DNA of 29,461 nt, taken from positions 1 to 29,461 of the IMG/VR virus record IMGVR_UViG_3300017969_000081, one strand, 5' to 3'. Source of the DNA: a virus. The notes beneath the pieces are model-generated. The model was not told the origin of the DNA and did no database searches. It saw only the letters and a list, made by a program, of their open reading frames with translations. Shown in pieces: positions 1 to 18,716 of the stretch; position 1 is the stretch's first letter; each line of letters starts with the position of its first letter. The position numbers were made by a program, and so were the translations under genes.

Positions 1-2259
1 GATGAAGATACATTATATTATTATACTGGTGGGAACCTTTCCGGAACTATTTCATCAACAACTGGAGCAGTCTTTAATGTTGATGTTGGTATTGGTTCAA
101 CACAACCAACAGCAACTCTTGATCTTGATGGAACATTTAATGTTACTGGTATTTCAACCTTTGGATCAGACCTTGATATTAATGCTGCTGTTGATATTTC
201 TTCTAACTTAACTGTTGATGGATTGAGTGACTTAGATCAACTTAATGTTACTGGTGTTTCTACTTTTCTTGATAATGTAAGAATTGCTGATGATAATATA
301 AAACTCCAAATAGGAGGCGGGAATGATATTGAGATATATCATTCTTCTGGAGTAAATTTTATTGAGATTGATTCTGGATCCGCTTTATCAATAAAAGATG
401 CAACTAACACAAGAGCTGTTTTCCAAGGAACGGGAGCAGTTGATTTGTATTATGGAGCAAACAAAAAATTTGAAACTATTGGTGCTGGTGTAACAGTCAC
501 TGGAACTACATTTACAAATCAACTTAGTGTTTCCGGTCTTTCTACTTTTGGGGCAAACGTAGATATCAATGCTGCTGTTGATATAAGTAATAACTTAGTT
601 GTAGATGGATTAAGTGACTTAGATGAACTTAATGTTGCTGGTATTGCAACCTTTAATTCTCTTACAACACTTGGTGCTGGACTTACGGTAACAGGTATCG
701 TAACCGCAAGTGGTGGTTTTAATTTAGGTATTAGTTCTGGTGGAACTTCTATTACTTCAGGACCAGTTACTACTCTGAACTTCATTGGTGCTGGTAATAC
801 CTTTGCCGTTGATGGAACAACTGTTGATATTACTCTCTCTCCTGATGTTGAGTATACTGATATTAATAAGCAAACATTTAATGTTGGTGTTGGTGGAACA
901 ACCTTAGTTACTCTGAATGAATCTTATACATCTGGTAATGTTGATGTTTATGTTAATGGTATTAAGTTAATTCCAACATCCGATTTTACTGAAACGAGTC
1001 AAAACGTCATTACATTGACTCAACCAGCACTTAGTGGTCACGTTATTGAGGTAGTTTCTTTCAAAGCAGTTTCTCTTGGTGAACTTGGATTAAATGTTCA
1101 GCAAGACGGCGTTGGAGTTGGTACAACTATTTCTACTCTTAATTTTGTTGGTGGAGCAAGTACTTATACTGATCGTGGAAATGGTACTCTTGATATAAAT
1201 CTTGCTCAGAGTAGAATTAATAAGCAAACATTTAATGTTGGTGTTGGTGGAACAACCTTAGTTACTCTGAATGAACCATATGAATCTGGAAAAATTGATG
1301 TTTATCTGAATGGTATTCGTTTAGCGCAGGCAGACTTTACTGAAACTTCTTCAACGACTGTTGGTTTAACAACTGCGGCTGATAACGGTGACGTTATTGA
1401 AATTCAATCATTTATTGGTGTAATCAATACACAAACATTCAGTATTATTGATAATTTAACGGTTGCTAATATTGCAACTATTACCAGTCTCAATGTAACT
1501 GGAGTTGCAACCGCTACATCATTTGTTGGAAACTTAACTGGAAATGTTACTGGTAATGCTGATACTGCAACCACTGCTACTAATATTGATATTAGTGCTG
1601 CTTCTTCTGGTGATACAACGACTCATCTTGTTCTCGTCGGAAACAATTCAACAGGAGCACAGCAACCATTTATTGATAATGGATCTTTGACTTATAATGC
1701 TTCGACAAATGTTTTAACTGCTGGCGGTGGATTTAGTGGTGATGGATCTGCTCTTACCGCACTGAATGCTTCTCAATTAACTTCTGGTACAATACCTGGA
1801 GATCGTGGTGTAACTTCTGGTTCTACTAGTTCTTCTTTTGTTGAGTATAATGGAACCACGAGAACATCAGGTCAGTTTTATGGTGGAACAACAGATCCAA
1901 CGAGTTCAACCAGATTAAATTACGATGGAAACTTACATATAAATGGTATGGTTGCCGTTGGTGTTGTTACCGCAACTGATTTTAACTCAACTTCTGATGT
2001 TAAACTCAAGACTAACGTTCAAACAATTGAAAATCCAATTGATAAAGTATTGCAGATAAATGGTGTTTCCTTTAATTGGATTGCAGATAATAGACCTTCT
2101 ATGGGTGTGATTGCTGATGAAATTGAAAAGGTATTGCCAGAGTTAGTCAGTGATACAGATCCTAAGACTGTAAATTATAATGGTCTTATTGGTCTTCTGA
2201 TTGAATGTATTAAGACTCAGCAAGTTGAAATTGAGAATATAAAGAAGAAACTAAACTAA
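1..2259 (+). CDS. Tail fibre protein with C-terminal S74 chaperone domain (5' truncated)
   Basis: The reading frame is open from base 1, so the ATG at 223 is internal and the true start lies upstream; 752 residues are visible. Most of the protein is beta-rich fibre repeat, including 'NLTVDGLSDLDQLNV' type units and 'NLTGNVTGNADTAT', typical of cyanomyovirus fibres. The last ~90 residues match the peptidase S74 intramolecular chaperone. The motif SDVKLK places a candidate nucleophile Ser at 1993-1995 and the paired Lys five residues later at 2008-2010, as in endosialidase-type S74 domains, which trimerise the fibre and then cleave themselves off just before the Ser. A short helical tail (QQVEIENIKKKLN) ends the protein. 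It contains an exact 60-nt internal repeat. The fibre role is secure; the receptor is unknown. Confidence 0.88.
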   Translation, partial: DEDTLYYYTGGNLSGTISSTTGAVFNVDVGIGSTQPTATLDLDGTFNVTGISTFGSDLDINAAVDISSNLTVDGLSDLDQLNVTGVSTFLDNVRIADDNIKLQIGGGNDIEIYHSSGVNFIEIDSGSALSIKDATNTRAVFQGTGAVDLYYGANKKFETIGAGVTVTGTTFTNQLSVSGLSTFGANVDINAAVDISNNLVVDGLSDLDELNVAGIATFNSLTTLGAGLTVTGIVTASGGFNLGISSGGTSITSGPVTTLNFIGAGNTFAVDGTTVDITLSPDVEYTDINKQTFNVGVGGTTLVTLNESYTSGNVDVYVNGIKLIPTSDFTETSQNVITLTQPALSGHVIEVVSFKAVSLGELGLNVQQDGVGVGTTISTLNFVGGASTYTDRGNGTLDINLAQSRINKQTFNVGVGGTTLVTLNEPYESGKIDVYLNGIRLAQADFTETSSTTVGLTTAADNGDVIEIQSFIGVINTQTFSIIDNLTVANIATITSLNVTGVATATSFVGNLTGNVTGNADTATTATNIDISAASSGDTTTHLVLVGNNSTGAQQPFIDNGSLTYNASTNVLTAGGGFSGDGSALTALNASQLTSGTIPGDRGVTSGSTSSSFVEYNGTTRTSGQFYGGTTDPTSSTRLNYDGNLHINGMVAVGVVTATDFNSTSDVKLKTNVQTIENPIDKVLQINGVSFNWIADNRPSMGVIADEIEKVLPELVSDTDPKTVNYNGLIGLLIECIKTQQVEIENIKKKLN
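862..1275 (+). repeat. Exact 60-nt direct repeat inside the S74 fibre gene
   Basis: Bases 862-921 and 1216-1275 are identical over 60 nt and lie 354 nt apart, a whole number of codons, so the frame is kept. Both encode 'INKQTFNVGVGGTTLVTLNE'. The flanks diverge at once, which suggests recent duplication or gene conversion of a fibre repeat unit. Confidence 0.9.
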
Positions 2260-2308
2260 AATAAATAACCTGAACAATTATTTGTAGATTAATAACTGGT
2301 TCTGATTA

Positions 2309-2316
2309 GATAAATA
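2309..2316 (+). promoter_or_regulatory. Possible late promoter (GATAAATA)
   Basis: GATAAATA lies 27 nt upstream of the ATG at 2343, in the 83-nt gap after the S74 fibre. It differs by one base from the T4-type late element TATAAATA. No -35 is expected for a gp55-type late sigma factor. The short motif and AT-rich background keep confidence modest. Confidence 0.4.
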
Positions 2317-2342
2317 GTAAAAACTGCCGAGTGTAAACGAAG

Positions 2343-2597
2343 ATGGCAATTAAAATTTCTGGAACTACTGTTATTGATGACAGTGGAAACCTGACTAATA
2401 TAAACAGTGGTGCTATTATTGGAATTCAATCTGCCGGAAATGCTATTGGTGCTGGTGCGACAACATTAAATTTCATCGGTGCTGGTAATACTTTTTCATA
2501 TAGTGCTGGGACAAAAACCTTAGATATTAGTATCTCTGGTGGTGGTGGTGGAGCTTCTGCATCATCCACTTACTTCTTTTCAAACATTCTATCTTAA
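2343..2597 (+). CDS. Small fibre-like protein (84 aa)
   Basis: An 84-residue protein starting MAIKISGTTVIDDSGN, an N-terminus typical of small cyanophage tail proteins. Its middle carries 'TTLNFIGAGNTF' followed by a VDI/LDI-type strand, the same beta unit found three times in the protein at 18717-19481 and once in the S74 fibre. A run of five Gly follows, then a short tail. It lies 8 nt before the next gene and probably belongs to the fibre operon. It is probably a minor virion or fibre accessory protein; its precise role is not recognisable. Confidence 0.7.
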   Translation: MAIKISGTTVIDDSGNLTNINSGAIIGIQSAGNAIGAGATTLNFIGAGNTFSYSAGTKTLDISISGGGGGASASSTYFFSNILS

Positions 2598-2604
2598 TTA
2601 AAAA

Positions 2605-2979
2605 ATGGCATCTCCAAATATTTTAGACCTAACAACAGTAACTGGTGTAACGACAGCAATTACGCTTGGCACAACTAGTGTTACGTCCTTAGTATCAAAT
2701 GCAGCAAGTTCTAATCAAGTTTATAGAGTTGCATCTCTAATTATTTCTAATATTGATGGAACTAATTCGGCTGACATAACCGTAAAATATCATGATGCTG
2801 TTGCAGCAGGTGGTACTGGTTATTCAGTTGCTACAACTATCGCAGTTCCTCCAGATTCTTCAATTAATATTATTGATAAAACCTCATTTTTGTATCTAGA
2901 AGAAAGTCGTTCACTTTCAGTTCAAGCCAGTGCATCTGGTGATTTGACTGCAGTATGTACTTATGAAGTATTAGAATGA
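2605..2979 (+). CDS. Small beta-rich virion-type protein, paralogue of 11569-11946
   Basis: A 124-residue protein, predicted all-beta, beginning MASPNILDLTTVTG. It is clearly homologous along its whole length to the 125-residue product of 11569-11946; shared landmarks are LVSNAASS, the strand around 'IISN.DG', 'YLEE' and the end 'C.YE'. The fold resembles small beta-sandwich structural proteins, but no named family is recognised. It starts 7 nt after the previous stop and ends 4 nt before the next start, so it is translationally linked to the LamG fibres. A structural or fibre-accessory role is inferred from position and from the presence of two copies in equivalent fibre modules. Confidence 0.72.
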   Translation: MASPNILDLTTVTGVTTAITLGTTSVTSLVSNAASSNQVYRVASLIISNIDGTNSADITVKYHDAVAAGGTGYSVATTIAVPPDSSINIIDKTSFLYLEESRSLSVQASASGDLTAVCTYEVLE

Positions 2980-2983
2980 TAAA

Positions 2984-3730
2984 ATGAAAAATTTAAGAAA
3001 GGTTGTTAATGGTGGATATTTGGGTATATCATATGAAAAAACTCAAAATCCAGCATTTAATTTTTTAAACCTAGCTATACCACTAAATTCTCTAGATGGA
3101 TCCACTGTCAATGTAATAGATTATTCGGAGCAAAGTAATTCTGTTACTAACAATTCAGTTACCTGGGATTCTGGAAGAACTGATAAATTTTATAATGGTG
3201 CATCTGCTTTTAATGGTTCTTCTTCTTATTTGAGTATTGGATCTAATGCTAGTCATGGAACAACCGGTGGTAGTGACTCTCCATTTACAATCGAATCTTA
3301 TATTTACAGTAATAATGTTAGCTCTGGAAATAGAACCATCTATGAGCAGCAACAGTCTGGATCTTCTAATTTAAAATTTTATACCAATGCTTCAACACTA
3401 TCAGTTGACTTTAATGGTGCAAACATACTCTCAAGTACTTCAAATATTACTGTAAGTACCTGGCATCATGTTGCTCTACAAAGAAGTGCTTCAGCATTAA
3501 GTATGTTTATTGATGGGGTATGTGTAGCATCAACTTCTGTTAGTGGAATATTGACATCTGCTTCTGTTAATATTGGCAGAAGTGTATCTGGATCGGAATA
3601 TTGGTCTGGAAATATACAGGATTTGAAAGTTTATTCAAATATTCCAAAATATTTTGGAAACTTTCAAGTTCCTTCGAGTTCGACAAGCAATACAAGAAGA
3701 TATCCATCAGGAATTTACACACTGGGATAA
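2984..3730 (+). CDS. LamG/concanavalin-like lectin-domain fibre protein
   Basis: A 248-residue protein. The segment from about residue 100 to 230 shows the LamG-like jelly-roll pattern: 'PFTIESYIY' first strand, a central 'STWHHVALQRS' motif, 'MFIDGVCVAS', and a final 'WSGNIQDLKVYSN'. Such domains bind glycans and are common at fibre tips. The N-terminal ~90 residues include another sheet-rich section ('SAFNGSSSYLSIG') that normally opens a LamG fold. There is no signal peptide or membrane segment. It is one of three LamG-bearing genes in a row, and its 3' end abuts the next start at 3735. Confidence 0.75.
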   Translation: MKNLRKVVNGGYLGISYEKTQNPAFNFLNLAIPLNSLDGSTVNVIDYSEQSNSVTNNSVTWDSGRTDKFYNGASAFNGSSSYLSIGSNASHGTTGGSDSPFTIESYIYSNNVSSGNRTIYEQQQSGSSNLKFYTNASTLSVDFNGANILSSTSNITVSTWHHVALQRSASALSMFIDGVCVASTSVSGILTSASVNIGRSVSGSEYWSGNIQDLKVYSNIPKYFGNFQVPSSSTSNTRRYPSGIYTLG

Positions 3731-3734
3731 AAAA

Positions 3735-5705
3735 ATGAGCGCATCTGCATACAAAAGAGTTTTTTCAAATAACCAAAGTTCTACTTTCAATGATGGATGT
3801 GACTACGAAGTAACCAGATTTTCATTGACAGAATATTCTACAGAATCTGACAATGAGGTTCAAGTAAAAAGTGATTTGTTATATTCTGGTTATTCTCCAA
3901 TAAAAGCTAATTCGTATTATAATACTGTATCTAATTTTGCTACCGAATCCGAACAGATTGCTGATTTAAACTTGGGTACAATAACAGCAGTTTCAACTGC
4001 CACGGGAGTTTATGGTCATCATATTGGAATTGGAACTCAAATTGGAACCAGTGGACAAAATAGTGGTGCTCCTGTCGCAGGGATCAAAGGAACACAAATC
4101 GCAATAACAAATTCACATACTGGAAATAATAGTCCATTTCAATATACAACAGATGGTGGTGTAAATTGGACAACCGCTAGTGGAGATTCTATTATAGGAT
4201 ATAACACATATATGTGGGCAACAAATGGATCTGATAAAATTGCCACATTATCTAACTATTCTAATAGTACAATGTATGCGACATTTAGTGGAGGAGTTCC
4301 GACTTCAGCAACGACAGCACAATCTCATTCAGCCATTGCTGGGGGAATATCTAATAATTTACTTTTAATGGGAAAATCAAATGAAATTTATAGATCAACT
4401 ACTTGGACTCCACCTGGAACTTTAGTTGCATCTATAACTGGATCACCATACGCTATGTCTATTAGTAGTGGTTCAGATACAACAGCAACTTGTTTAGCAT
4501 TTATTTATAACGGAACTCTTTATAGGAGTACTGATGGTGGACAAAATTGGTCTCAAGTATCTCCAACAAGTTTACCAAATTTCAACTTTAGTGGTGTTGG
4601 GAATAGGTCTTGTGTTTGGCATTCAGAAACATCAAAATTTTATGTTTTAAACCATGTTGCTGGAAAAGCAACAATATATTCTAGTTCTGATGGACTAACC
4701 TGGGAGATGTTATCTCAAACTGCATATGGAGGTTATCCAGCTTTTAGTAGACTTCAATCAGAAAACGGTTATTTAATTGGCATTGGCAGTAAAATATGGC
4801 AAAGTGTTGATGGATATGTCTGGTCTAGACTAAGTGGTACAAGTTTTTTTGATAGAAATTTTGCATACGGATCATCAGGTTATACTAATTTTGATGGTAC
4901 TGGATATTATGCTGAAGCATCAACTGGTGGAAATGGAAGATCTCATGAATATGGTGAATATGGAACATATACAGAAATAACAACAGACACAAATTCAAAT
5001 TATTCTTATTTGACACTATCCTCTTCCCAACAAGCCAAACGAAGTGATGCTACTGGATCTCCACCTAGTATTGTGGGTGATATTCAATTAGTAAATACAC
5101 CAGATAACAAAATATATTTGCAAAATCCTTCTGGTGCCTGGGGAACTAGTTATTCTGGAACATCTTTGGTTACTTCTGCTGGTTTCAATGGAGCATATGT
5201 TGGACTTAAAGTTGGTAGTCCATTCTCATCAGGATACATTAGAGAAACTAATATTCCTGATCTATCAGCTTTTACTTATGATTTATTGTTTAGATTTAAC
5301 TCTGCAAGTGATACAAGTAAAACACTAATTGATACTAGAAATTCTACAAATACTACGGGATTTTATGTTGAAATTGATGGATCCAGTATTTTAAAAATAT
5401 ACTCTGCTGATGGACTAAGTTCAAATACATTATTATCACCTATTGATACTGAATGGCATCATCTCAGAATTACTCCATCAACATCGTATATAGATAATAC
5501 TAGTATTTCTCATGGATTTACTGTAAGTAGTGGTTCTAGAATTTCAATTGCTAGAAATTGGAGTAACTCTAATATTTTGCAAGTAAAAATTAGTAATTTT
5601 AGATTGGTACAAAAAACATTATCTTCTCCTGGTGAAAACTACCTTAGAAATTTATTATCAACTTCCACTAAATCATATCCTGCTATAAAACCTGTTAATT
5701 ATTAA
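3735..5705 (+). CDS. Adhesin with Asp-box (BNR) propeller and C-terminal LamG domain
   Basis: A 656-residue protein read from the ATG at 3735; an in-frame ATG at 3654 would overlap the previous gene by 77 nt, so it is rejected. Four Asp-box repeats of the form S/T-x-D-G-x-x-W are visible: TTDGGVNW (138-145), STDGGQNW (265-272), SSDGLTW (317-323) and SVDGYVW (357-363), indicating a sialidase-type beta-propeller. From about residue 520 a LamG-like domain follows, with 'FTYDLLFRF', 'DTEWHHLRI' and 'VKISNFRLVQ'. No catalytic sialidase residues can be assigned, so glycan binding is more likely than hydrolysis. It lies between two other LamG proteins in the fibre operon. Confidence 0.75.
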   Translation: MSASAYKRVFSNNQSSTFNDGCDYEVTRFSLTEYSTESDNEVQVKSDLLYSGYSPIKANSYYNTVSNFATESEQIADLNLGTITAVSTATGVYGHHIGIGTQIGTSGQNSGAPVAGIKGTQIAITNSHTGNNSPFQYTTDGGVNWTTASGDSIIGYNTYMWATNGSDKIATLSNYSNSTMYATFSGGVPTSATTAQSHSAIAGGISNNLLLMGKSNEIYRSTTWTPPGTLVASITGSPYAMSISSGSDTTATCLAFIYNGTLYRSTDGGQNWSQVSPTSLPNFNFSGVGNRSCVWHSETSKFYVLNHVAGKATIYSSSDGLTWEMLSQTAYGGYPAFSRLQSENGYLIGIGSKIWQSVDGYVWSRLSGTSFFDRNFAYGSSGYTNFDGTGYYAEASTGGNGRSHEYGEYGTYTEITTDTNSNYSYLTLSSSQQAKRSDATGSPPSIVGDIQLVNTPDNKIYLQNPSGAWGTSYSGTSLVTSAGFNGAYVGLKVGSPFSSGYIRETNIPDLSAFTYDLLFRFNSASDTSKTLIDTRNSTNTTGFYVEIDGSSILKIYSADGLSSNTLLSPIDTEWHHLRITPSTSYIDNTSISHGFTVSSGSRISIARNWSNSNILQVKISNFRLVQKTLSSPGENYLRNLLSTSTKSYPAIKPVNY

Positions 5706-5706
5706 A

Positions 5707-6549
5707 ATGACTAATAGAAACATAGGAAACACTTTTGGAATAAAAAAGACAGATGATTTAAAATCTGGAATATGGAATACTTATGAAATACATAATCAAA
5801 AATTACCAGACTCATTTGGTGCTAGTAGTTGGTATGCTGAAAATAATCTAAAAGACTATCAAGTTTTGTATGTTCCACTAGATAATACGAATTGGGATGC
5901 CTATGGATCATCTGGTGGAAGTGTTGGTATAATAACAGAAGCTCCTAATGTTGCAGCTGGATTTACTGAAACATCTCCACAAAATGATTTTGGTATTACT
6001 GCATGTATGTTTAATGATGCCAATCAAAATGATAGATTTATTACAATTCCTGCGAGTTCAGATTTTGCTTTGGGAACTTCCGATTTTACAATTGATATTT
6101 TCCTGAATAGAACATCAACAGGTTGGTATGAAGGTGGAACTCTTATCGATGCAAGAGATCCTTCAACAAATCAAGGTCCTTGGTATATTGGATATTCAGC
6201 TTATCAGGGACGCAGTAAGCCATCATTATATGTTGACAATAGTAATGGTGCTAACACTTTTCAGACATTTGAAACTGAAACACTTTCCGGATCAACCTGG
6301 TATCATTATAGGTGGTCTAGGAATGGTGATAAACTTAGAGCATTTACTAATGGTATTCTTCGTAATACTTATACTTTTAATAATCCACATGTTCCAATAA
6401 ACCCAAGCAACAATCCTATTAGAATTGGTGTAGGTGCAAAGGGATATTTTGGACATTTGAGGATTGTGAAAGGAATTGGATTGAATGGAACTGATAGACC
6501 AGATTTCTATAGTGGTATTAGTTCTACTTCATCAAGATTACCAATTTGA
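5707..6549 (+). CDS. LamG-domain fibre protein
   Basis: A 280-residue protein starting one base after the previous stop. An N-terminal linker of ~60 residues is followed by a LamG-like lectin fold: 'DFTIDIFLNRTS', 'TLIDARD', 'GSTWYHYRWSRNGDKL' and 'GYFGHLRIVKGIG', which matches the strand order of the family. It is related in architecture to the C-terminal half of the upstream Asp-box adhesin. It is likely a fibre tip or fibre-attached lectin that contacts host surface glycans. No catalytic residues are seen. Confidence 0.72.
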   Translation: MTNRNIGNTFGIKKTDDLKSGIWNTYEIHNQKLPDSFGASSWYAENNLKDYQVLYVPLDNTNWDAYGSSGGSVGIITEAPNVAAGFTETSPQNDFGITACMFNDANQNDRFITIPASSDFALGTSDFTIDIFLNRTSTGWYEGGTLIDARDPSTNQGPWYIGYSAYQGRSKPSLYVDNSNGANTFQTFETETLSGSTWYHYRWSRNGDKLRAFTNGILRNTYTFNNPHVPINPSNNPIRIGVGAKGYFGHLRIVKGIGLNGTDRPDFYSGISSTSSRLPI

Positions 6550-6567
6550 TTCAATATATAATCTTTG

Positions 6568-6575
6568 GATAAATA
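6568..6575 (+). promoter_or_regulatory. Possible late promoter (GATAAATA)
   Basis: GATAAATA in the 47-nt gap between the LamG gene and the ATG at 6597, with 21 nt from motif to start. It is the same variant of the T4 late element as at 2309 and 22703. Confidence 0.4.
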
Positions 6576-6596
6576 AAAAAACCTACAATCACTAAA

Positions 6597-7040
6597 ATGC
6601 TATACTCATACATAAATCGTTATCCAGAAAAACTTCCCAAAAGATTTAGATTGGGTGATGGATCAACTATTACAAATTTAGCAGAAAAATCTAGTGAAGA
6701 ATTGCTAGAGTTGGGATTTGATGGACCATATGAAATACCAGTTTATGATCCATCAAATGAAAAAATAAATTGGAATGGTAGTGGATTTGATATTATTCCA
6801 TTTTCAGAAGATGAAAAAAATGGAAGGATTGCTGAAATTTGGAGAAATGTTCGAAATAGAAGGGAAGAACTTTTAAGTAAGACTGATTGGACACTTTTGC
6901 CAGATTCTCAATTATCTGAAGAGAAAAAAAATGAGTTTTTATCTTATAGACAAAAATTGAGAAATATTCCTCAAGAATTTTCTGATCCAAGTCAAATTAT
7001 TTGGCCTCAAGAACCTCAAGCAATAGATCTACCTTATTAA
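6597..7040 (+). CDS. Phage tail assembly chaperone-like protein
   Basis: A 147-residue protein. The C-terminal half has the hallmarks of the phage tail assembly chaperone type often encoded after fibre genes: 'IWRNVRNRREELLSKTDW', then 'FLSYRQKLRNIPQ' and a proline-rich end with 'WPQEP'. The N-terminal half ('ELGFDGPYEIPVYD') is shared with the product of 11965-12528, showing that the two are paralogues. Such proteins are thought to help fold or attach fibres. It closes fibre module 1 and converges with the minus-strand oxygenase; the stop codons are only 3 nt apart. Confidence 0.72.
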   Translation: MLYSYINRYPEKLPKRFRLGDGSTITNLAEKSSEELLELGFDGPYEIPVYDPSNEKINWNGSGFDIIPFSEDEKNGRIAEIWRNVRNRREELLSKTDWTLLPDSQLSEEKKNEFLSYRQKLRNIPQEFSDPSQIIWPQEPQAIDLPY

Positions 7041-7043
7041 TAA

Positions 7044-7652
7044 TTAATTTTTATCTTTAAAAGAAACCATATTAAATGTCAGATTTTCATCTGCTTGATA
7101 CCATCCTGTAGCAATATACTTTCTTTCTCCGGGAGGATTTCCTCTATGTGTGTGACTAAATCCAGCAGGCCAAATTAATACTGTTCCTTCTGTAGGTGTA
7201 TATCTTTCGTCATAAAAATAAAATTCAGTTTCACCTTTATCTTTTACCGTATTTAAATATACCATCCAAACCAGAGTTCTAGAACTATATCTCCAACTAG
7301 TGTTTTCTGCATGAAAATTATGAAATCCTCCTGTTGGTGGTTCTGTCACTTGTAAATTGGTTCTAGTGCTTATGAAATTAAATTCGGATAGAATAGGATA
7401 TTCTTGCACATAGTGTTTAAGACACTCGTTCACTCCACCCATAAGAAGATGTGATTCATTAGGATTGAATGAATCTAAAGAAATAAGCTTATCGTCTATA
7501 TTTTTGTTTTTTCTAAAAATAATGTTTTCAGATCTATCGCAATATTCTCTTAAATATTGCATGAAAGAATCTTGAAAGACATTATCAAATTTTCCAATAA
7601 AGTTTGAAAAAGAACAGTCAAAAGAATCATTTATTGGGAAATCACTTTTCAT
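7044..7652 (-). CDS. 2OG-Fe(II) oxygenase, prolyl-hydroxylase-like (only minus-strand gene)
   Basis: A 202-residue protein on the minus strand. The double-stranded beta-helix is clear: 'HAEN' gives the first iron pair as HxE (His114/Glu116), 'WMVYLNTV' and 'GETEF' are the following strands, and 'WPAGFSHTHRG' carries the distal His. Arg177 or Lys178 in 'GERKYIATGWY' would hold 2-oxoglutarate. HxE instead of HxD is usual in this subfamily. The enzyme would hydroxylate a protein or small-molecule side chain; the substrate is unknown. It is the only gene facing left in the window and shares a symmetric promoter region with the halogenase-like gene. No good Shine-Dalgarno is seen before the ATG at 7652. 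Confidence 0.82.
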   Translation of the reverse strand: MKSDFPINDSFDCSFSNFIGKFDNVFQDSFMQYLREYCDRSENIIFRKNKNIDDKLISLDSFNPNESHLLMGGVNECLKHYVQEYPILSEFNFISTRTNLQVTEPPTGGFHNFHAENTSWRYSSRTLVWMVYLNTVKDKGETEFYFYDERYTPTEGTVLIWPAGFSHTHRGNPPGERKYIATGWYQADENLTFNMVSFKDKN

Positions 7653-7655
7653 TTT

Positions 7656-7711
7656 TTATTGACAGAAAATTTATATACGATTATAATATTATTTTAAAGC
7701 ATTGTCAATAA
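7656..7711. promoter_or_regulatory. Symmetric overlapping bidirectional sigma-70 promoter
   Basis: Plus strand: TTGACA at 7659-7664, a 17-nt spacer, TATAAT at 7682-7687. Minus strand: TTGACA (7708-7703), a 17-nt spacer, TATAAT (7685-7680). Both are perfect consensus, and their -10 elements overlap in the palindrome ATTATAAT (7680-7687). The flanking TTATTGACA arms (7656-7664 and 7703-7711) are exact inverted repeats centred on the same axis. The two promoters cannot be occupied together. The right arm reaches the A of the ATG at 7711. They would drive the oxygenase leftward and the halogenase-like gene rightward. Confidence 0.85.
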
Positions 7712-8949
7712 TGAAAGTATCAATCGTTGGAAAGGGCACATCTGCAATTATCACGGCACTTAAATGTATTTCCCATGGAATTGATGTTGAGATTTATTAT
7801 GATCCAAATATACCTTATGTGAGTGTTGGTGAAACGACAACACCAGTTGTTGCAGAGCTTTTGAGAAATGTCACTGGAGTCAGTATTTCTGAACTATATC
7901 AAAAAGGCATTGCATCAATTAAGACTGGAATTAAGTTTATTGATTGGGGTAAAAGTGAGGTATTTTATCACAATTTTGAGAATGCAATGTCAATGCAGTT
8001 TGAGACAGATAAACTAAACCCTTTCGTTCATAATTTATTAGAAGAAAAAGGATTGGTTACTTATATTCCAGAAAATGTAGGTGAGTATAAAATTCTTGAC
8101 AATCAAGTAATTATTAATGGCAGATATTCTGATTTTGTAATTTTTTGCACAGGGTTTTCTGATCAAGATGAATATCTTCCACCATATGTAAATTCTGTCA
8201 ATTCTGGCATACTTTTTGTAAAGGATGGTGTTGATGGAGATGAAACTTATTCCATTCACAAATCTACAGAAGATGGGTGGCAATTTGGATTACCATTTCC
8301 AAAGTTTAAAATGACAAAATGTGGATATCTATATGATTCTAATATTTCAAATCCAAAAGAAGTTGAAGAAAAAGTTAGGAATTTTGAAAACTGTAAAGTA
8401 GTTAATCATATTCATTGGAAACAAAAATATGCAAAAAATTTATTGCAAAACAAATATTGTGCATATAATGGAAATCGATTATTTTTCTTTGAACCATTGC
8501 AAGCTTTAAGTCTCCATTATTATGAAATATTTGCTGAAATTATTTGTGCCTTTTTGAAATTTAAGGATATTAGTTATTTTTATGCTGCGAATTATCAATA
8601 TCATCATAATATGTGGCAACAGCAATTAACTCTTGCACATCATTATCAATATGGTTCTAAATTTGATACAAGTTTTTGGAAACAAATTGTAGATCAATCT
8701 AAATCTTTTATTGATAAAACTCCCATTCGTTCTAAGGATATTCTGTTAGATAATATGATTGCGGATTATGTCATTAAAACCTCAGGTTACTCTACTATCG
8801 GACCAATGCAAAAGCATGATTGTAAACAACTTTATTGCGGATTTAGTGGGGAAAGTTATGAAGACATTTATGCGGAATATACAGATAAATTAAAAGACTT
8901 CAATAATACAGTTTGGACCAATGAACCTTATGACAATTTTTATGAATAA
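7711..8949 (+). CDS. Divergent flavin-dependent tryptophan halogenase homologue
   Basis: A 412-residue protein read from the ATG at 7711; a TTG at 7702 is in frame but less likely. The N-terminal FAD-binding loop is VSIVGKGTSA (3-12), followed by 'VSVGETTTP' and 'IKTGIKFIDW', whose first Lys (71) aligns with the catalytic Lys79 of PrnA. The family's WxWxIP motif is degraded to WQFGLP (190-195), and the 'EPLEATS' segment reads EPLQALS (261-267), losing the acidic residue that corresponds to Glu346 of PrnA. It is about 100 residues shorter than typical halogenases. It probably binds FAD, but halogenation is doubtful; it may be a changed flavoenzyme. It overlaps the next oxygenase by 8 nt, mirroring the second pair at 25878-27955. 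Confidence 0.8.
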   Translation: MKVSIVGKGTSAIITALKCISHGIDVEIYYDPNIPYVSVGETTTPVVAELLRNVTGVSISELYQKGIASIKTGIKFIDWGKSEVFYHNFENAMSMQFETDKLNPFVHNLLEEKGLVTYIPENVGEYKILDNQVIINGRYSDFVIFCTGFSDQDEYLPPYVNSVNSGILFVKDGVDGDETYSIHKSTEDGWQFGLPFPKFKMTKCGYLYDSNISNPKEVEEKVRNFENCKVVNHIHWKQKYAKNLLQNKYCAYNGNRLFFFEPLQALSLHYYEIFAEIICAFLKFKDISYFYAANYQYHHNMWQQQLTLAHHYQYGSKFDTSFWKQIVDQSKSFIDKTPIRSKDILLDNMIADYVIKTSGYSTIGPMQKHDCKQLYCGFSGESYEDIYAEYTDKLKDFNNTVWTNEPYDNFYE

Positions 8950-9460
8950 TTTTACTTATCATTATAAAGATAATTTTTTAAATAATATTGATGACATAAG
9001 ATCTATTGCATTAAATTGCAACTACAACAAATCTGATTTGAATACTGGGTGGAAAGGATTTAGATCAAATTTAATAGAAGCAAATTTAATTAAAGATCCT
9101 ATTCTAGATGAGATTTGTGAGTTTTTAAATCTAGAAAAAAATAATTACACTTTATCTTGTTTTTTTCATTATTCTTTGGAAGAAACTAAGTACGAATGCT
9201 TTCCATCCTTTAATCAGTATAAATGGCATGTTGATGGGTGTGATGTTGCGGGGGTTATTTATTTACAACCATTTCCTATGAATAATTGTGGAACTTCTAT
9301 AATCAATAAAAAAGGAGAAAAACTTGAAATAGATAATGTCTATAATAGGATTTTGTATTATGATGCAAATCTATTACATGCTCCAAATAATTTATTTGGT
9401 AAAGATATTGATAATTCGAGAATGACTATTAGTTTTTTTATGACACATATATCAAATTAA
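8942..9460 (+). CDS. Putative 2OG-Fe(II) oxygenase, partner of the halogenase homologue
   Basis: 172 residues from the ATG at 8942, which overlaps the upstream stop by 8 nt and aligns with the start of its paralogue at 27446; ATGs at 8921 and 8930 are alternatives. Candidate iron ligands are His96 and Asp98 in 'YKWHVDG' and His146 in 'NLLHAP'; Arg160 in 'SRMTISFF' would bind the co-substrate. The same four residues sit at nearly identical numbers (95, 97, 146, 160) in the paralogue. Shared signatures include 'FHYSLE.TK..CFP.FN'. It resembles small proteins encoded beside tryptophan halogenases in bacteria (DUF6445-like, from memory). The substrate is unknown. Confidence 0.7.
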   Translation: MNNFTYHYKDNFLNNIDDIRSIALNCNYNKSDLNTGWKGFRSNLIEANLIKDPILDEICEFLNLEKNNYTLSCFFHYSLEETKYECFPSFNQYKWHVDGCDVAGVIYLQPFPMNNCGTSIINKKGEKLEIDNVYNRILYYDANLLHAPNNLFGKDIDNSRMTISFFMTHISN

Positions 9461-9471
9461 AAAGGATTCTA

Positions 9472-10248
9472 ATGACACTTTCATTTGATTATTGGTATGT
9501 CTTCCCTATTGCAATAATTGTCGCAACATTGTGCAATGCATCTGGATTTTCTGGAAGTGTATTATTCCAACCATTTTTTAATTTTGTTCTTGGTATACCT
9601 ATTGCACAATCTGTAGCAACTGGTATTGCAACAGAAAGTATCGGAATGACTAGTGGTGCAGTATCTTATTGGAGAATGGGAAATAAAATTGATATTAAAG
9701 CAGTCAAAAAAGTATTCCCATTTGTTTATATTGGAATTATTACTGGAGTTTTCCTATTTGTTTTTCTACCAAAACTTTGGTTAAGGTTTGTAGTTGGTTG
9801 TAGTATATTTTCTATTGCAAGTTATCAGCTTTATTTTGCATATCTTGGAAAGTTTGGTGTCAATGATAAAGCAGATTTAAATATTCTTGGAAGTCGTAAA
9901 TCGCGCATCAAACAATTTTTTGCTGGTGTTTCCTCTGCTTCTACTGGCACCGGCATAGCGGAAATTCATCAGCCAATGTTTGAGCATGATGCAGGTCTTT
10001 CTACTAAGAAATCAAATGCATCTGCTATTCTTATCGAAGCACTTGGAAATTGGTTTATTACTCTACTGAATATTAAATTGGGAAATATTGACTATGAAAT
10101 TCTCATCTTCAGTGCAAGTGGTGTTTTGATTGGTGGTCAAATTGGTCCATTGATTTCTAATCACATTTCCGATAGAGTTTTGAAGGTAATATTTGGAATT
10201 TCTGTCTGTATAATTGGAGTAATTTATATTATAACTTCACTGTATTGA
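9472..10248 (+). CDS. TauE/SafE-family membrane permease
   Basis: A 258-residue integral membrane protein with about eight hydrophobic segments in two halves, separated by a charged loop around residues 125-150. The N-terminal 'NASGFSGSVLFQPFFNF' and 'QSVATGIATESIGMTSGA' match the first half-repeat of TauE/SafE (former DUF81), and 'IEALGNWFITLL' followed by 'ASGVLIGGQIGPLIS' matches the second. Family members export or import sulfite, sulfonates or other small anions. A Shine-Dalgarno (AAGGA) precedes the ATG. It ends enzyme module A, 11 nt after the oxygenase. In a phage it would be an auxiliary metabolic gene; the transported anion is unknown, though sulfotransferases occur in the window. 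Confidence 0.85.
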   Translation: MTLSFDYWYVFPIAIIVATLCNASGFSGSVLFQPFFNFVLGIPIAQSVATGIATESIGMTSGAVSYWRMGNKIDIKAVKKVFPFVYIGIITGVFLFVFLPKLWLRFVVGCSIFSIASYQLYFAYLGKFGVNDKADLNILGSRKSRIKQFFAGVSSASTGTGIAEIHQPMFEHDAGLSTKKSNASAILIEALGNWFITLLNIKLGNIDYEILIFSASGVLIGGQIGPLISNHISDRVLKVIFGISVCIIGVIYIITSLY

Positions 10249-10278
10249 TACTGTAAATTGGTTCATCGCAAAGTATTT

Positions 10279-10309
10279 ACTTTTTTATTTCTTATAAATA
10301 ATTAAAAAG
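10279..10309 (+). promoter_or_regulatory. Late promoter with conserved flanks (TATAAATA at 10293-10300)
   Basis: A canonical T4-type late element, TATAAATA, lies 16 nt before the ATG at 10317. The surrounding 31 nt match 18679-18709 at 30 positions, and the ATG falls at the same distance in both. It drives fibre module 2. Confidence 0.75.
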
Positions 10310-10316
10310 CGGTAAA

Positions 10317-10802
10317 ATGACAAGAGCCAGAGAAATATCTAGATTGTTTTCTCCGGGAGTTCCAGATATTAATGTTGGTATAGTAACTGCTACTAAACTT
10401 CATGTTGGTTCTGGTGTATCAATTACTAGTGGAATCATCACAGCAACAACAGGAATTGTTACTTACTATGGTGATGGCCAATACCTTCAGAATATTGTAA
10501 GTGGTGTTGGTATTGCAACAGAGGGTGGAACAGTTGGGACTGGTGCAACTTTATTAGACTTTAGAGGAGCAGGAATTTCTACAGTCACTGTTTCTTCTGG
10601 TATTGCAACAATTAATGTAACTGGAGGAGGTGGATCTATAGGAACCACTGGAATTACAACACAAACATTCTTCTCTAATCCAAATATTATTAGTGAAGCA
10701 TATGTTTTAGATAATCCAAATCATAATTATGGAATGTTTGGTCCAGTTTCTGTTGGTGCTACCATCACTGTTGGTGTTGGAAATACCTTCGTAATCGTAT
10801 AA
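10317..10802 (+). CDS. Fibre-type structural protein (161 aa)
   Basis: A 161-residue beta-rich protein. The N-terminus MTRAREISRLF is shared with 18717 (MTKARDIS) and is typical of cyanophage fibre-associated proteins. The body consists of Gly/Thr/Val-rich repeats ('GIVTATKLHVGSG', 'VSSGIATINVTGGGG'). The C-terminus has 'HNYGMFGPVSVGATITVG' and 'NTFVIV', a beta-structured tip often seen in T4-like cyanophage fibres. The start codon is set by the late promoter spacing. It is the first gene of fibre module 2. A virion role is inferred; the exact attachment is unknown. Confidence 0.72.
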   Translation: MTRAREISRLFSPGVPDINVGIVTATKLHVGSGVSITSGIITATTGIVTYYGDGQYLQNIVSGVGIATEGGTVGTGATLLDFRGAGISTVTVSSGIATINVTGGGGSIGTTGITTQTFFSNPNIISEAYVLDNPNHNYGMFGPVSVGATITVGVGNTFVIV

Positions 10803-10814
10803 GGAGTTTAGAAA

Positions 10815-11048
10815 ATGTCTTCTTTAAGAGTTAATAAGATAGTAAACTACAATGATGATGGTCCAGTTGAATTTACAAAAGGTGTTTCTGTTCCTTCTGG
10901 TCAGCAAATTGATGGAACATTAGTCATTAATACTGTTGGTGTAGTTACTGCCACATCTTTTAGTGGTGTTGGTGCTGGAATAACAACATTTGGAGTTGCA
11001 AATGAAGTTTCTACCAGTAAAGCTATAGCATACACAATAATAGGATAA
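10815..11048 (+). CDS. Small VPSGQ-motif fibre protein, copy 1
   Basis: A 77-residue protein preceded by a strong Shine-Dalgarno (AAGGAG). It begins MSSLRVNKIVNYNDDGPVEF, has the signature 'SVPSGQ', a short fibre repeat ('GVVTATSFSG') and the end 'SKAIAYTIIG'. The next two genes encode proteins with the same order of motifs, so this is a tandem family made by duplication. A small trimeric fibre segment or virion decoration protein is plausible; no named family is recognised. Confidence 0.72.
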   Translation: MSSLRVNKIVNYNDDGPVEFTKGVSVPSGQQIDGTLVINTVGVVTATSFSGVGAGITTFGVANEVSTSKAIAYTIIG

Positions 11049-11052
11049 AAAA

Positions 11053-11286
11053 ATGACAATAAACTCTAAACTTCAAGTTGATAGTATAGAAGCATTTGAT
11101 CCTGCTGGACCTGTTGTAGTTTCTTACGGAGCTTCTGTTCCTTCTGGGCAAACATTCACTGCACAAGGTAATGTAAATATAAGTGGAATTGTTACAGCAT
11201 CAAATTTTTCTGGTGATGGTAGTGGATTGTCCGGATTAAATATTGCAACTTCATCAAAAGCAATTGCATACACTCTTATAACTTAA
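11053..11286 (+). CDS. Small VPSGQ-motif fibre protein, copy 2
   Basis: 77 residues, starting 4 nt after copy 1. It has 'SKLQVDSIEAFDPAGPVVV', 'ASVPSGQTFTAQG', 'GIVTASNFSGDGSGLSGLN' and the terminal 'SSKAIAYTLIT', matching copies 1 and 3 segment by segment. The 'GDGSGLSGLN' unit also occurs in long cyanophage fibres. Probably a short structural fibre or tip protein; the precise function is unknown. Confidence 0.72.
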   Translation: MTINSKLQVDSIEAFDPAGPVVVSYGASVPSGQTFTAQGNVNISGIVTASNFSGDGSGLSGLNIATSSKAIAYTLIT

Positions 11287-11287
11287 A

Positions 11288-11533
11288 ATGGCAAAAATAA
11301 AAGTAAATTCTATTGTTAATCAGAATGATGATGGGGCACCTGAATTAACCAGAGGTGCCACAGTTCCTTCTGGGCAAAGTTTTGACGTTGAGGGAAATGT
11401 TAATGTTGTTGGTGTAATAACAGCATCTAATTTTGTAGGAAATGGTTCTGAATTAAGTGGAATAAATATATCCACACAAGGTAAAGCAATTGCTTTTAAA
11501 AGAATTCTTGGATTTGATGAATATAGATCATAA
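11288..11533 (+). CDS. Small VPSGQ-motif fibre protein, copy 3
   Basis: 81 residues, starting one base after copy 2. It has 'IKVNSIVNQNDDGAPEL', 'ATVPSGQSFDVEG', 'GVITASNFVGNGSELSGIN' and 'GKAIAFKRILGFDEYRS', the last being a longer tail than in its two tandem paralogues. Its N-terminus is closer to copy 1 (NDDG) and its middle closer to copy 2 (TASNF), which suggests mixing between copies. The role is the same as for the other two. Confidence 0.72.
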   Translation: MAKIKVNSIVNQNDDGAPELTRGATVPSGQSFDVEGNVNVVGVITASNFVGNGSELSGINISTQGKAIAFKRILGFDEYRS

Positions 11534-11538
11534 AATAC

Positions 11539-11546
11539 TATAAATA
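11539..11546 (+). promoter_or_regulatory. Late promoter (TATAAATA)
   Basis: An exact TATAAATA element in the 35-nt gap before the ATG at 11569. An AAGGAGA ribosome-binding site follows at about 11552-11558. It would start a late transcript for the beta-protein, chaperone and Cys-rich protein. Confidence 0.68.
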
Positions 11547-11568
11547 TAAAAAAGGAGAGAATTAAAAA

Positions 11569-11946
11569 ATGGCAGCCCCAAACATTGTAAATGTAACCAC
11601 GATTATAGGTAAAACTAGTTATTTGAATTTAGGAGACACTAATGACACCGTTCTCGTTAGTAATGCAGCTTCAAGTGGAAAGGTATATAAAATTAATTCA
11701 ATTATTGTTTCTAATGATGATGGCGTAGATACTGCTAATATTACAGTTGCACTTCATAATGCAGCAGCGGGTGGTGGATCTGGATTCAAACTTGCACATA
11801 CAATTGATGTTGTTGCAGATTCAACACTTGTAGTTTTAGATAAAGCATCATCAATCTATTTGGAAGAAGATCATTCTATTGTTGTTACCGCATCTGCAGC
11901 ATCAGATTTGGATGTTATATGTTCTTATGAAGAAATTTCTGCTTGA
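11569..11946 (+). CDS. Small beta-rich virion-type protein, paralogue of 2605-2979
   Basis: A 125-residue protein beginning MAAPNIVNVTTIIG. It is homologous end to end to the product of 2605-2979: both have LVSNAASS, 'I.VSN.DG', a Gly-rich turn near the middle, 'IYLEE' and the C-terminal 'C.YEE/YEV'. It has its own late promoter and ribosome-binding site. In both modules a tail-assembly-chaperone-like gene lies downstream, so the two families may function together in fibre assembly. No named domain is recognised. Confidence 0.75.
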   Translation: MAAPNIVNVTTIIGKTSYLNLGDTNDTVLVSNAASSGKVYKINSIIVSNDDGVDTANITVALHNAAAGGGSGFKLAHTIDVVADSTLVVLDKASSIYLEEDHSIVVTASAASDLDVICSYEEISA

Positions 11947-11964
11947 TACGGAGAGTAATTACCA

Positions 11965-12528
11965 ATGGCAAATCCAACAGCACTATACTCTTATCAGGGG
12001 CAAGCACCAGCACCACTTCCAAAAAAAATTCTTTTAAGTGACGGTAGAAAAAGAACAGACATAAATTCTTTTACTGACGAAGAATTATTAAAATCTGGAT
12101 ATAGTGGACCTTACGAAGTCCCGAATTATGATCAAGAATATCAAAGAATTTTATGGAATTCAGAAACTCTCTCATTTGTTGTAGAAGATATTTCTGATGA
12201 AGAACTTTGGGATAAAGTTCGCAAAGAAAGAGACAATCTTCTTTCAAAATCTGATTGGACAATGTTTATAGATTCTTCAGAGACTTTAAATTATCGTGAG
12301 TGGGAGATGTATCGTCAAAGGCTTAGAGACCTAACAAACCTTTATGATAGTCCAAAGAATGTAGTTTTTCCTGAAAGTCCAGAAGGAAAATCCGATGAAG
12401 ATTTTGAACAACCTAGAGTTTATGAAGACAGAATTATTCGTAGAGTTCGTGCTTTAGAAGAAGAAATCAAAATACTTAATGCAAAAGTATTTTCAGAATC
12501 TGTAGGTATTGCTTCAACGGATGGGTAA
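11965..12528 (+). CDS. Phage tail assembly chaperone-like protein, paralogue of 6597-7040
   Basis: A 187-residue protein. Shared with its 147-residue paralogue are 'LYSY', 'LLSDGRKRTDINSF', 'SGYSGPYEVPNYD', 'VRKERDNLLSKSDW', 'YRQRLRDL' and the terminal proline motif 'VFPESPEG'. It adds ~40 residues at the C-terminus with a heptad-like helical stretch ('RRVRALEEEIKILNAKVF'), absent from the shorter copy. A ribosome-binding site (GGAG) precedes the ATG. It probably assists folding or attachment of the downstream fibre protein, as chaperones of this class do next to fibre genes. Confidence 0.73.
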   Translation: MANPTALYSYQGQAPAPLPKKILLSDGRKRTDINSFTDEELLKSGYSGPYEVPNYDQEYQRILWNSETLSFVVEDISDEELWDKVRKERDNLLSKSDWTMFIDSSETLNYREWEMYRQRLRDLTNLYDSPKNVVFPESPEGKSDEDFEQPRVYEDRIIRRVRALEEEIKILNAKVFSESVGIASTDG

Positions 12529-12531
12529 CTT

Positions 12532-13272
12532 ATGGCACCTTTTAGACCCACAAATATTAATAAAAGAGCATACCCAGGAAATGCAAGTGTAGTTGGACCA
12601 ACTATAGAAGCATCATTAGGAATTAGTACAACAACTTGTTGTAGTTCTACCAATGTGTGTGATGCTTGTACTGGTCCTAATAATATTTTAGGATGTAGAT
12701 ATACTTATTGTTATTGCCCTTGTTGTAATGTTTGTTGTTCTTGTGATTGTACAGTATGCACACAAACTGTTCCTGGTGGAATGTGGAAGTCTTCAGAGCA
12801 ATATACCGCATCTGTTGCTGGTGCATGGGGAAATAGTTCAACGTCCTCAAATACTGCACCAGTTTGCTTATGTTGTACTAATGTTGGTGCAACTTCACTT
12901 AGTTCTGCTTGTTCAGATTGTGGTGGATTTTTTATAAGATGTGGACCATCAACTGCAAAATGGTTTATAGCACCATCTTGTACTGAATTGTGTAGGGTTT
13001 GGACTTCTAGAAATGATGCAGTTACATGTGCAAATTCTGCAGTAGGTTCTTGTGGTTGGTTTATTCATTCAATTACACAATGGAGTGATACTTTATATCC
13101 TGGTGGAGCATATTGGGATTCTAAACAATCTGGTATAAGTCAATGGTATTGGAGTGATACTGAATCTAACGGAACCTACGCTTCCCTTGCCTGCTTCTTT
13201 AATGGTAGGCCTTCAATCGGGACAAAGTCGTCCTCGCACTGGGTCCGAGCTACAAGATGTGTTCCATCTTAA
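12532..13272 (+). CDS. Cys-rich virion protein with C-terminal DUF1566/C-type-lectin-like domain
   Basis: A 246-residue protein with 26 Cys, ten of them between residues 55 and 76. The N-terminus (MAPFRPTNINKRAYPG) is followed by the Cys cluster, then 'GGMWKSSEQYTASVAGAWG' and repeated small Cys/Trp motifs. The C-terminal ~45 residues fit the end of the DUF1566/Lcl C-type-lectin fold: 'YWSDTESN', then 'A..FFNG......K.....VRATR'. Bases 13177-13251 are A-poor (12 of 75) and GC-rich (41 of 75), whereas the preceding 75 nt have 24 A and 30 GC by hand count. That is the expected trace of a DGR variable region. Likely a surface-displayed receptor-binding protein. There is no signal peptide. Confidence 0.7.
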   Translation: MAPFRPTNINKRAYPGNASVVGPTIEASLGISTTTCCSSTNVCDACTGPNNILGCRYTYCYCPCCNVCCSCDCTVCTQTVPGGMWKSSEQYTASVAGAWGNSSTSSNTAPVCLCCTNVGATSLSSACSDCGGFFIRCGPSTAKWFIAPSCTELCRVWTSRNDAVTCANSAVGSCGWFIHSITQWSDTLYPGGAYWDSKQSGISQWYWSDTESNGTYASLACFFNGRPSIGTKSSSHWVRATRCVPS

Positions 13273-13300
13273 ATAACAAATTGAACATTATTGATTTTGA

Positions 13301-13801
13301 ATGTCTTCTATTAATTTTTTTAAAGCAAAAAATAAACACGAATATAATCAAAAATTTTTGACAAAAGTTCCTTCTTGGGAGCAAATAATTTACAATATAG
13401 ATTTAAATGTAAAGAAAAAAAACAAAATAATAAATAGAGATTATTATGGAATAGAAATTTTTAATATATTTGATATAGAAGAAGTAGATAAAATTATTGG
13501 TTGGATTAAAAAAAATAATCCAAACCATTTATATTCAGCACATGCTTATGTAAGTCTGTCAGAAAAAAGTCATACACTAGGAAAACATTTTGATAGTTCT
13601 GATGTATGGTTTTGGCAGTGCATAGGAAAAACTAAATGGCATGTATATGAAAACAACAAAAATTATTCTTATATAATGAGTCCTGGCGATTTTATATATG
13701 TTCCAAAGAATATTTTTCATGAGGTAATTCCATTAACACCAAGGGTTGGAATTTCTTTTGGAATAGATTATAATGATTCTATACTTAAATACAGTTATTG
13801 A
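13301..13801 (+). CDS. JmjC/cupin-like 2OG oxygenase
   Basis: A 166-residue protein. The core 'KHFDSSDVWFWQCIGKTKWHVY' segment (residues 95-116) gives an HxD pair (His96/Asp98) and the typical 'Q..G.K.W' strand of JmjC/Cupin_4 hydroxylases. 'SPGDFIYVPKNIFHEV' supplies the distal His140. It lacks the long dimerisation and winged-helix parts of ROXA-like ribosomal oxygenases, so it is a minimal catalytic domain. It is the first gene of enzyme module B. JmjC/cupin proteins are known neighbours of halogenases, sugar and peptide tailoring genes; the substrate here is unknown. Confidence 0.75.
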   Translation: MSSINFFKAKNKHEYNQKFLTKVPSWEQIIYNIDLNVKKKNKIINRDYYGIEIFNIFDIEEVDKIIGWIKKNNPNHLYSAHAYVSLSEKSHTLGKHFDSSDVWFWQCIGKTKWHVYENNKNYSYIMSPGDFIYVPKNIFHEVIPLTPRVGISFGIDYNDSILKYSY

Positions 13802-13806
13802 ATAAC

Positions 13807-15537: not shown

Positions 15538-15542
15538 TTAAT

Positions 15543-16079
15543 ATGAAAATAACAGCATTTGAAATACCAATTTTTAAATATAAAGTTTCTGAATGGCAAA
15601 TTAAAAAGAAAAAATTATTAGATTTATTTGATTCTTTTGACAATCAAATAGTTGGTAATGTTATTACAAGTCCAATATTTTATAAAACAGATATATTTTC
15701 TGAAGAAATGCATCTGTTCGAAAAAGAAGTTAATCTAAAGTTAAAAATAGATAATATTTGGTTTCAGAAATATGAAACAAAAATGGATCATGGAGTTCAT
15801 AATCATGGATCATCTACATTTTCTTCTGTTTGTTTTATAGAATATGAGAAAAATTTTCATAGTCCGACTATTTTTGTATCTCCCTTTACAAATAATATTA
15901 CAAATGAATTTATTACTTATGCACCAAATGTAGAAGAGGGTGATATAATATTTTTTCCATCAAATCTTTTACATTATGCACCTCCAAATTTTTCAGATAA
16001 ACATAGAACTATTATTTCATTTAACTTATTAATTGATAATATAAATGAAAATAAAATAAAGTACAATTATAGTTGTTGA
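15543..16079 (+). CDS. Putative 2OG-Fe(II) oxygenase
   Basis: 178 residues from the ATG at 15543; the TTG at 15534, which would overlap the carbamoyltransferase stop, is a weaker start. The pattern matches phage oxygenases of the 2OG-FeII_Oxy_5 type: 'NIWFQKYETKMDHGVHNHGS' (71-90) with His86/His88, then 'GDIIFFPSNLLHYAPPN' with His144, and Arg155 in 'HRTIISFNLL'. It is closely similar in design to the proteins at 16125 and 22740. The first motif reads HxH rather than HxD, so the acidic iron ligand cannot be assigned with certainty. The substrate is unknown. Confidence 0.72.
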   Translation: MKITAFEIPIFKYKVSEWQIKKKKLLDLFDSFDNQIVGNVITSPIFYKTDIFSEEMHLFEKEVNLKLKIDNIWFQKYETKMDHGVHNHGSSTFSSVCFIEYEKNFHSPTIFVSPFTNNITNEFITYAPNVEEGDIIFFPSNLLHYAPPNFSDKHRTIISFNLLIDNINENKIKYNYSC

Positions 16080-16101
16080 AATAAAATATATGTGATATAA
16101 T
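16073..16101 (+). promoter_or_regulatory. Possible extended -10 promoter
   Basis: TGATATAAT (16093-16101) is an extended -10 (TGn plus perfect TATAAT). With a 17-nt spacer, the -35 is TTGTTG (16073-16078), two bases off consensus. It lies in the 45-nt gap before the ATG at 16125. Confidence 0.5.
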
Positions 16102-16124
16102 AAATTTAAGTATTAAAAAAAACT

Positions 16125-16730: not shown

Positions 16731-16738
16731 CCAAAAGA

Positions 16739-17467: not shown

Positions 17468-17580
17468 TGAAACAATATTATTTCATCTCTGGACTTCCAA
17501 GGTCTGGTTCTACATTACTTTCTGGTATTCTTAATCGGAAAATATATTTTATTAAATGGAGACAAAATGAAAATTATTAA
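17467..17580 (+). pseudogene. Sulfotransferase remnant (N-terminal stub only)
   Basis: From the ATG at 17467 the frame reads MKQYYFISGLPRSGSTLLSG and continues ILNRK, which is the start of a PAPS-dependent sulfotransferase including the 5'-phosphosulfate loop (PRSGST). It is like the intact gene at 23388 (KYYFLGGLMRSGNTLLSSIL). At about base 17539 the similarity stops and the frame runs through the leader of the next gene to a TAA at 17578-17580. Only ~24 sulfotransferase codons survive, so it cannot be an active enzyme. Confidence 0.82.
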
Positions 17581-18526: not shown

Positions 18527-18539
18527 ACTTTTAATATTA

Positions 18540-18709: not shown

Positions 18710-18716
18710 CTATGAA

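Follow-up and report, generated by a model that had tools for sequence, protein, structure and literature searches.

Background

Bidirectional promoters, in which divergent mRNA genes share a -10 element read on both strands, are known from bacteria (Warman, Grainger; PMC12825309, PMC10268837). Two polymerases are sterically excluded at such a promoter, which is therefore occupied in one orientation at a time (PMC12825309). The described examples are pseudo-symmetric, those tested are weak, and in most of them the starts lie 18 bp apart, the commonest spacing in E. coli, with a 5-bp overlap of imperfect -10 elements (PMC12825309, PMC10268837). Divergent starts separated by 7-25 bp are characteristic of the class; small variations around the preferred spacings are allowed (PMC12825309). 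Five E. coli bidirectional promoters have been tested, and at basal activity none was strong enough for its two directions to compete; competition appeared once a stronger -35 element was given to one side, which suppressed the other (PMC12825309). Overlapping divergent promoters of which one direction may win are also found in genetic switches such as that of plasmid pLS20, which is described as relying on a dedicated regulator and operators (PMC4207663).

The locus described here lies between an oxygenase gene transcribed leftward and a halogenase operon transcribed rightward. Its intergenic gap very probably holds a genuine bidirectional promoter of the sigma70 type with a shared -10 element, most likely early and read by the host RNA polymerase. 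This putative promoter is of the known bacterial kind but is fully consensus, with a 21-bp geometry.

Results and Discussion

Genes and phage context

The window, meaning the whole stretch of viral DNA that was analysed (29,461 nucleotides), appears from its relatives to belong to a T4-like marine cyanophage, and the host is suggested by family resemblance. Homologues of the oxygenase come mainly from Synechococcus and Prochlorococcus phages, and Synechococcus phage S-SM2 has a gene 86% identical to the one at 28632. More tail-fibre-like genes lie to the right of the halogenase operon, and the locus is a cyanophage tail-fibre region (Table 1). The cultured homologues of the halogenase, in S-SCSM1 and P-TIM40, lie in plus-only runs of genes with no divergent oxygenase.

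Positions 7044-10248 and 13301-29461 form a dense island of tailoring enzymes among the tail-fibre genes, with about nine oxygenases of the 2OG-Fe(II), JmjC or Asp/Arg-hydroxylase type, two proteins of the halogenase family, a carbamoyltransferase, a TauE transporter and a pair of sulfotransferases. Both halogenase-family genes (in the regions 7711-9460 and 25878-27955) have a DUF6445-like gene overlapping their 3' end, which suggests that the halogenase and the DUF6445-like protein constitute a repeated two-gene unit.

Table 1. Predicted promoter elements, neighbouring genes and related motifs in the window
Feature	Position	Strand	Remarks
Plus promoter, -35 TTGACA	7659-7664	+	Halogenase side; direct reading and promoter scan; invariant in L006
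Plus promoter, -10 TATAAT	7682-7687	+	17-bp spacer; reading, scan and L006 comparison
Minus promoter, -35 TTGACA	7708-7703	-	Oxygenase side; 17-bp spacer; reading and scan; invariant in L006
Minus promoter, -10 TATAAT	7685-7680	-	Reading, scan and L006 comparison
Palindromic common core ATTATAAT	7680-7687		Axis 7683.5; both -10 boxes combined
Whole symmetric element	7656-7711		As delimited in the initial annotation; outer 3 bp of arms not conserved
Intergenic gap, 58 bp	7653-7710		Completely taken up by the two promoters and leaders
Perfect promoter TTGACA-17-TATAAT	28580-28608	+	Only other one in the window; serves 2OG oxygenase 28632-29252
2OG-Fe(II) oxygenase (PF13640), 202 aa	7044-7652	-	Leftward transcription
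Trp_halogenase-family protein (PF04820, best stretch partial), 412 aa	7711-8949	+	Heads rightward operon
DUF6445-like protein	8921-9460	+	Just under Pfam cut-off; overlaps halogenase end; likely co-transcribed
TauE/SafE transporter-like gene	9472-10248	+	Likely last gene of rightward halogenase operon
Tail assembly chaperone gene	6597-7040		Left of oxygenase; stop codons 3 bp apart
T4-late-type motif GATAAATA	6568-6575	+	Upstream of tail chaperone gene 6597-7040

Architecture of the dual promoter

Two exact consensus promoters with a common palindromic -10 element had been proposed for opposite strands of the gap, and both direct reading and a promoter scan bear this out. Each strand matches the sigma70-type consensus (TTGACA-17-TATAAT) in 12 of 12 letters, with a spacer of the optimal length, and each match precedes a start codon, in agreement with the early-promoter consensus of cyanophages. 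The two opposite-strand TATAAT boxes overlap in the 4 bp TATA (7682-7685), so that a -10 element is shared as in bacterial bidirectional promoters. On either side of the axis at 7683.5, TTATTGACA (7656-7664) and TGTCAATAA (7703-7711) form the arms of an exact inverted repeat, each 9 bp long.

From the end of the -10 box to the ATG there are 23 nt for the plus promoter and 27 nt for the minus promoter. The geometry of the elements predicts starts at 7694 (+) and 7673 (-), 21 bp apart, and a shift to the nearest purine could move them to 7696 (+) and 7672 (-). This predicted spacing falls within the range of 7-25 bp but is not one of the 10, 18 and 23 bp preferred in E. coli. If both TATAAT boxes are perfect and lie on opposite strands, any overlap is restricted to 4 bp, with starts 21 bp apart, or 2 bp, with starts 23 or 15 bp apart; an 18-bp start spacing, by the same geometry, needs imperfect -10 boxes. 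The predicted dual promoter is the tightest head-to-head overlap that costs neither -10 box a letter. In contrast to the pseudo-symmetric bacterial examples, it has four full-consensus hexamers and two 17-bp spacers, with an overlap of 4 bp and predicted starts 21 bp apart.

The overlap would save space by fitting two complete promoters into 58 bp, at the price that each -35 element would occupy the would-be Shine-Dalgarno position of the opposite mRNA. The oxygenase mRNA would include in its 5' leader the complement of the -35 element at 7659-7664, and the halogenase leader that of the element at 7703-7708, immediately before the ATG. Both leaders (within 7653-7710) have TGTCAATAA just ahead of the ATG, and there is no space for a Shine-Dalgarno sequence in either because the complement of the opposite -35 element directly precedes the start codon. 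RNA structure in a read-through transcript was also considered and rejected, with no clear excess over shuffled sequences (z of -1.6 for the plus strand and -0.6 for the minus strand).

The same dimensions support a rival account, to which we give a chance only a little short of even: two ordinary early promoters have been packed into 58 bp, the symmetry is a by-product, and initiation stays so far from saturating the site that exclusivity regulates nothing. The gap of 58 bp, with distances of 23 and 27 nt from -10 to ATG, leaves no room for separate promoters, and since perfect TATAAT boxes overlap by 4 or 2 bp only, any tight pair of them is automatically symmetric. This account concerns the purpose of the bidirectional promoter and not its existence.

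Rarity of the arrangement

Within positions 1-20000 the dual promoter supplies the only 12/12 promoters found by the scan, and the whole window has one more (28580-28608). The dual pattern is expected 3e-7 to 1e-6 times per window by a Markov estimate, or 3e-6 to 1e-5 times if nine combinations of spacings are allowed. No second match to the dual pattern occurs in the window, even with 3 mismatches.

In the IMG/VR collection the pattern with spacers of 14-16 was found on four contigs, three of which carry the oxygenase-halogenase module and one an unrelated prophage-like locus, and a control pattern with reversed letters was found on one. Because the control also matches once, a lone perfect match in so large a database could be accidental, and it is the conservation and the placement of the element that carry the argument. 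Accidental matching of AT-rich sequence, for which an isolated match would be unsurprising, is scarcely credible here: the element falls precisely in the gap that separates two divergent start codons, and in the relative L006 conservation is confined to its promoter elements.

A relaxed pattern gave at least 115 readable matches in viral contigs, and among those listed none adjoins homologues of either gene. The sequence TTGACACTCTGCTAATAACTAATTATAATCAACACTGTAAGGGTTG(A/C)CAA, a dual promoter that is nearly symmetric but has an imperfect -35 element on one side, recurs in the viral contigs L177, L211, L224, L265 and L281.

Conservation in a relative

In the collections searched, three contigs besides the window carry both genes, two of them near-identical to it. 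The third, L006, has the same gene order, with protein identities of 83% for the halogenase and 77% for the oxygenase; a TauE/SafE-like gene was not found after its DUF6445-like gene. The initial annotation would have abandoned its interpretation if relatives that keep both genes lacked the symmetry. In L006 the promoter symmetry is present: both promoters are perfect, both 17-bp spacings are unchanged, and the distance from the -10 box of the plus promoter to the ATG is again 23 nt. Between the window and L006, 0 of 20 hexamer and core positions have changed as against 14 of 30 spacer positions (Fisher p=2e-4), so that the elements are conserved while their surroundings diverge; since two lineages of the locus can be distinguished in the collections searched, this is one independent pairwise comparison. 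The 9-bp arms fare less well. They are exact in the window, but biological weight for them is not supported, for in L006 the outer 3 bp of each arm are not palindromic and the 6-bp hexamer arms alone are conserved.

The symmetry might instead be that of an operator, with a phage repressor or host factor binding as a dimer to the inverted repeat over divergent promoters, as in temperate switches. The element is indeed a long interrupted inverted repeat, with 38 of the 56 positions across 7656-7711 self-complementary (both 9-bp arms, all 8 bp of the core and a modest share of the intervening positions). Such a switch is resembled by an unrelated, prophage-like viral locus, L031 (2041-2090), where a gene for an HTH repressor adjoins a perfect dual promoter whose palindromic spacers are probably operators. 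In the phage, however, the spacers are not palindromic (6 of 15 positions self-complementary in the window and 2 of 15 in L006), and the outer letters of the arms are not conserved. No regulator gene is adjacent, the neighbours being the oxygenase, halogenase, DUF6445, TauE and tail chaperone genes, and no NtcA or Pho box was found in the region. An operator is therefore very unlikely, and the locus differs from pLS20 as described (PMC4207663) and from L031 in that neither a dedicated regulator nor operators were found at it. Because the elements have been kept in L006 while the outer arms and the spacer symmetry have been lost, selection, as judged by this comparison, maintains the hexamers that sigma70 reads on each strand rather than an inverted repeat of the operator type.

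Probable early promoters among late genes

T4-late-type motifs (NATAAATA) precede the genes at 2343, 6597, 10317, 11569, 18717 and 22740, whereas no exact motif of this type is found before the oxygenase or the halogenase gene. One might still suppose that the minus gene is driven late by TATAAATT (7675-7668, minus strand), which matches the T4 late motif in 7 of 8 letters in a region where late motifs precede the neighbouring structural genes, and that the likeness to sigma70 promoters is secondary there. This is highly improbable, because the spacer letters differ in L006 and TATAAATT is lost there, while both sigma70 hexamers are kept.

Perfect sigma70-type promoters have a clear place in related phages. 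Six genomes of cultured cyanophages contain 2 to 17 perfect TTGACA-16..18-TATAAT promoters each, 43 in the forward direction and 1 in the reverse, against a total of 2 for the reversed control. Since these promoters are nearly all in one direction and the control matches are few, occurrences of the consensus in such phages are real promoters. At the place that matches 28580-28608, S-SM2 also carries a perfect promoter, with unrelated spacer letters and the same 23 nt to the ATG. We infer that early expression driven by the host polymerase is the natural reading for these enzyme genes among late genes, because of this promoter before an oxygenase gene in the window and in S-SM2 and because of the common 23-nt distance from -10 to ATG. 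The predicted dual promoter thus resembles the early promoters of T4-like cyanophages (Kyanoviridae) in its perfect elements and in the class of enzyme served in S-SM2, and differs in that those of the six cultured genomes are unidirectional; no pair that shares a -10 box was found among their perfect promoters.

The same layout between fabH and fabD

A total of 84,980 bacterial and archaeal genomes was scanned for the dual pattern with spacers of 14-16. The scan found 110 loci, 72 of them with the exact 15/15 arrangement, which corresponds to 17-bp promoter spacers. Fifty-three of the 110 adjoin fabH or fabD, and all 53 are 15/15; the other 57 are 15/15 in 19 cases, where 6.3 are expected (binomial p=7e-6). 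Open reading frames lie on both sides at 65 of the 72 bacterial 15/15 loci, compared with 64% of random positions, a weak test that was not used as evidence. Among 295 genomes of the order, the pattern occurs in 19 and the reversed control in none.

Selection on the pattern itself was avoided by searching for fabH by protein homology alone within the Clostridia family, which yielded 30 fetched loci. The genes fabH and fabD are divergent in 28 of these, and all 28 have the 20 letters and the 15/15 spacing, in the layout TTGACA-15-ATTATAAT-15-TGTCAA (L053:2355-2404, L286-L313), with FabH identities down to 50%. Perfect symmetry had been called extreme for the phage, and in the sense of unique this can no longer be said, for one family of gut bacteria has the same layout at 28 of 28 divergent loci. 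This fixation also speaks in favour of a genuine bidirectional promoter in the phage. No description of a dual promoter between fabH and fabD was found in the literature searched, so that this promoter looks both invariant and, by that search, undescribed. The 20-letter layout in these Agathobaculum/Butyricicoccus-type Clostridia is identical to that of the phage, but the genes are bacterial fatty-acid genes with no homology to the phage genes, and the spacers are unrelated. The fab loci are analogues of the phage locus, not homologues, and apparently represent convergence with it.

Possible competition between the two directions

At the predicted dual promoter the host sigma70 holoenzyme would bind in either of two orientations, and the bound polymerase would mask the opposite start, so that each loading event would give one transcript or the other. 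Because the hexamers and the spacings are equal on both sides, any directional bias would have to come from the spacer, discriminator and leader sequences. Late in infection, read-through from the motif at 6568 would cross the oxygenase gene in the antisense direction and then enter the halogenase operon as sense transcription.

Both sides appear strong, and competition should therefore matter more than at the weak promoters of E. coli. On the strength of these promoters, we put the odds of a functional effect of competition between the phage oxygenase and halogenase at about even. Promoters with full consensus elements may release the polymerase slowly, so tight binding does not guarantee high output.

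The lack of competition at basal activity in five of five E. coli promoters agrees with simple packing of two ordinary promoters; the suppression of the opposite side by a single stronger -35 element argues against it (PMC12825309), as does the fact that both arms in the phage are full consensus and have stayed that way in L006, in contrast to the weak, non-competing E. coli cases. In the most far-reaching interpretation the two sides truly compete, in a regulator-free choice between oxygenase and halogenase operon at each loading event that would be a matter of chance per cell at low phage copy; selection would have maintained the arrangement in a lytic phage and, on a separate occasion, in the fab genes, where it may fix a ratio. 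We regard this full interpretation as unlikely.

Conclusions

Bidirectional promoters have been recognised in bacteria only recently, and those studied in E. coli are too weak to compete unless an activator assists. A pair that is symmetric, conserved and perfect by nature would offer a clean case, since competition should be inherent in it and need no regulator. The dual promoter predicts its starts to within a few bases, and may serve as a natural substrate for learning how spacer and discriminator set direction. The fixation of the same layout at fabH/fabD across a bacterial family suggests that it has been selected repeatedly, perhaps because it locks the ratio of two gene products.
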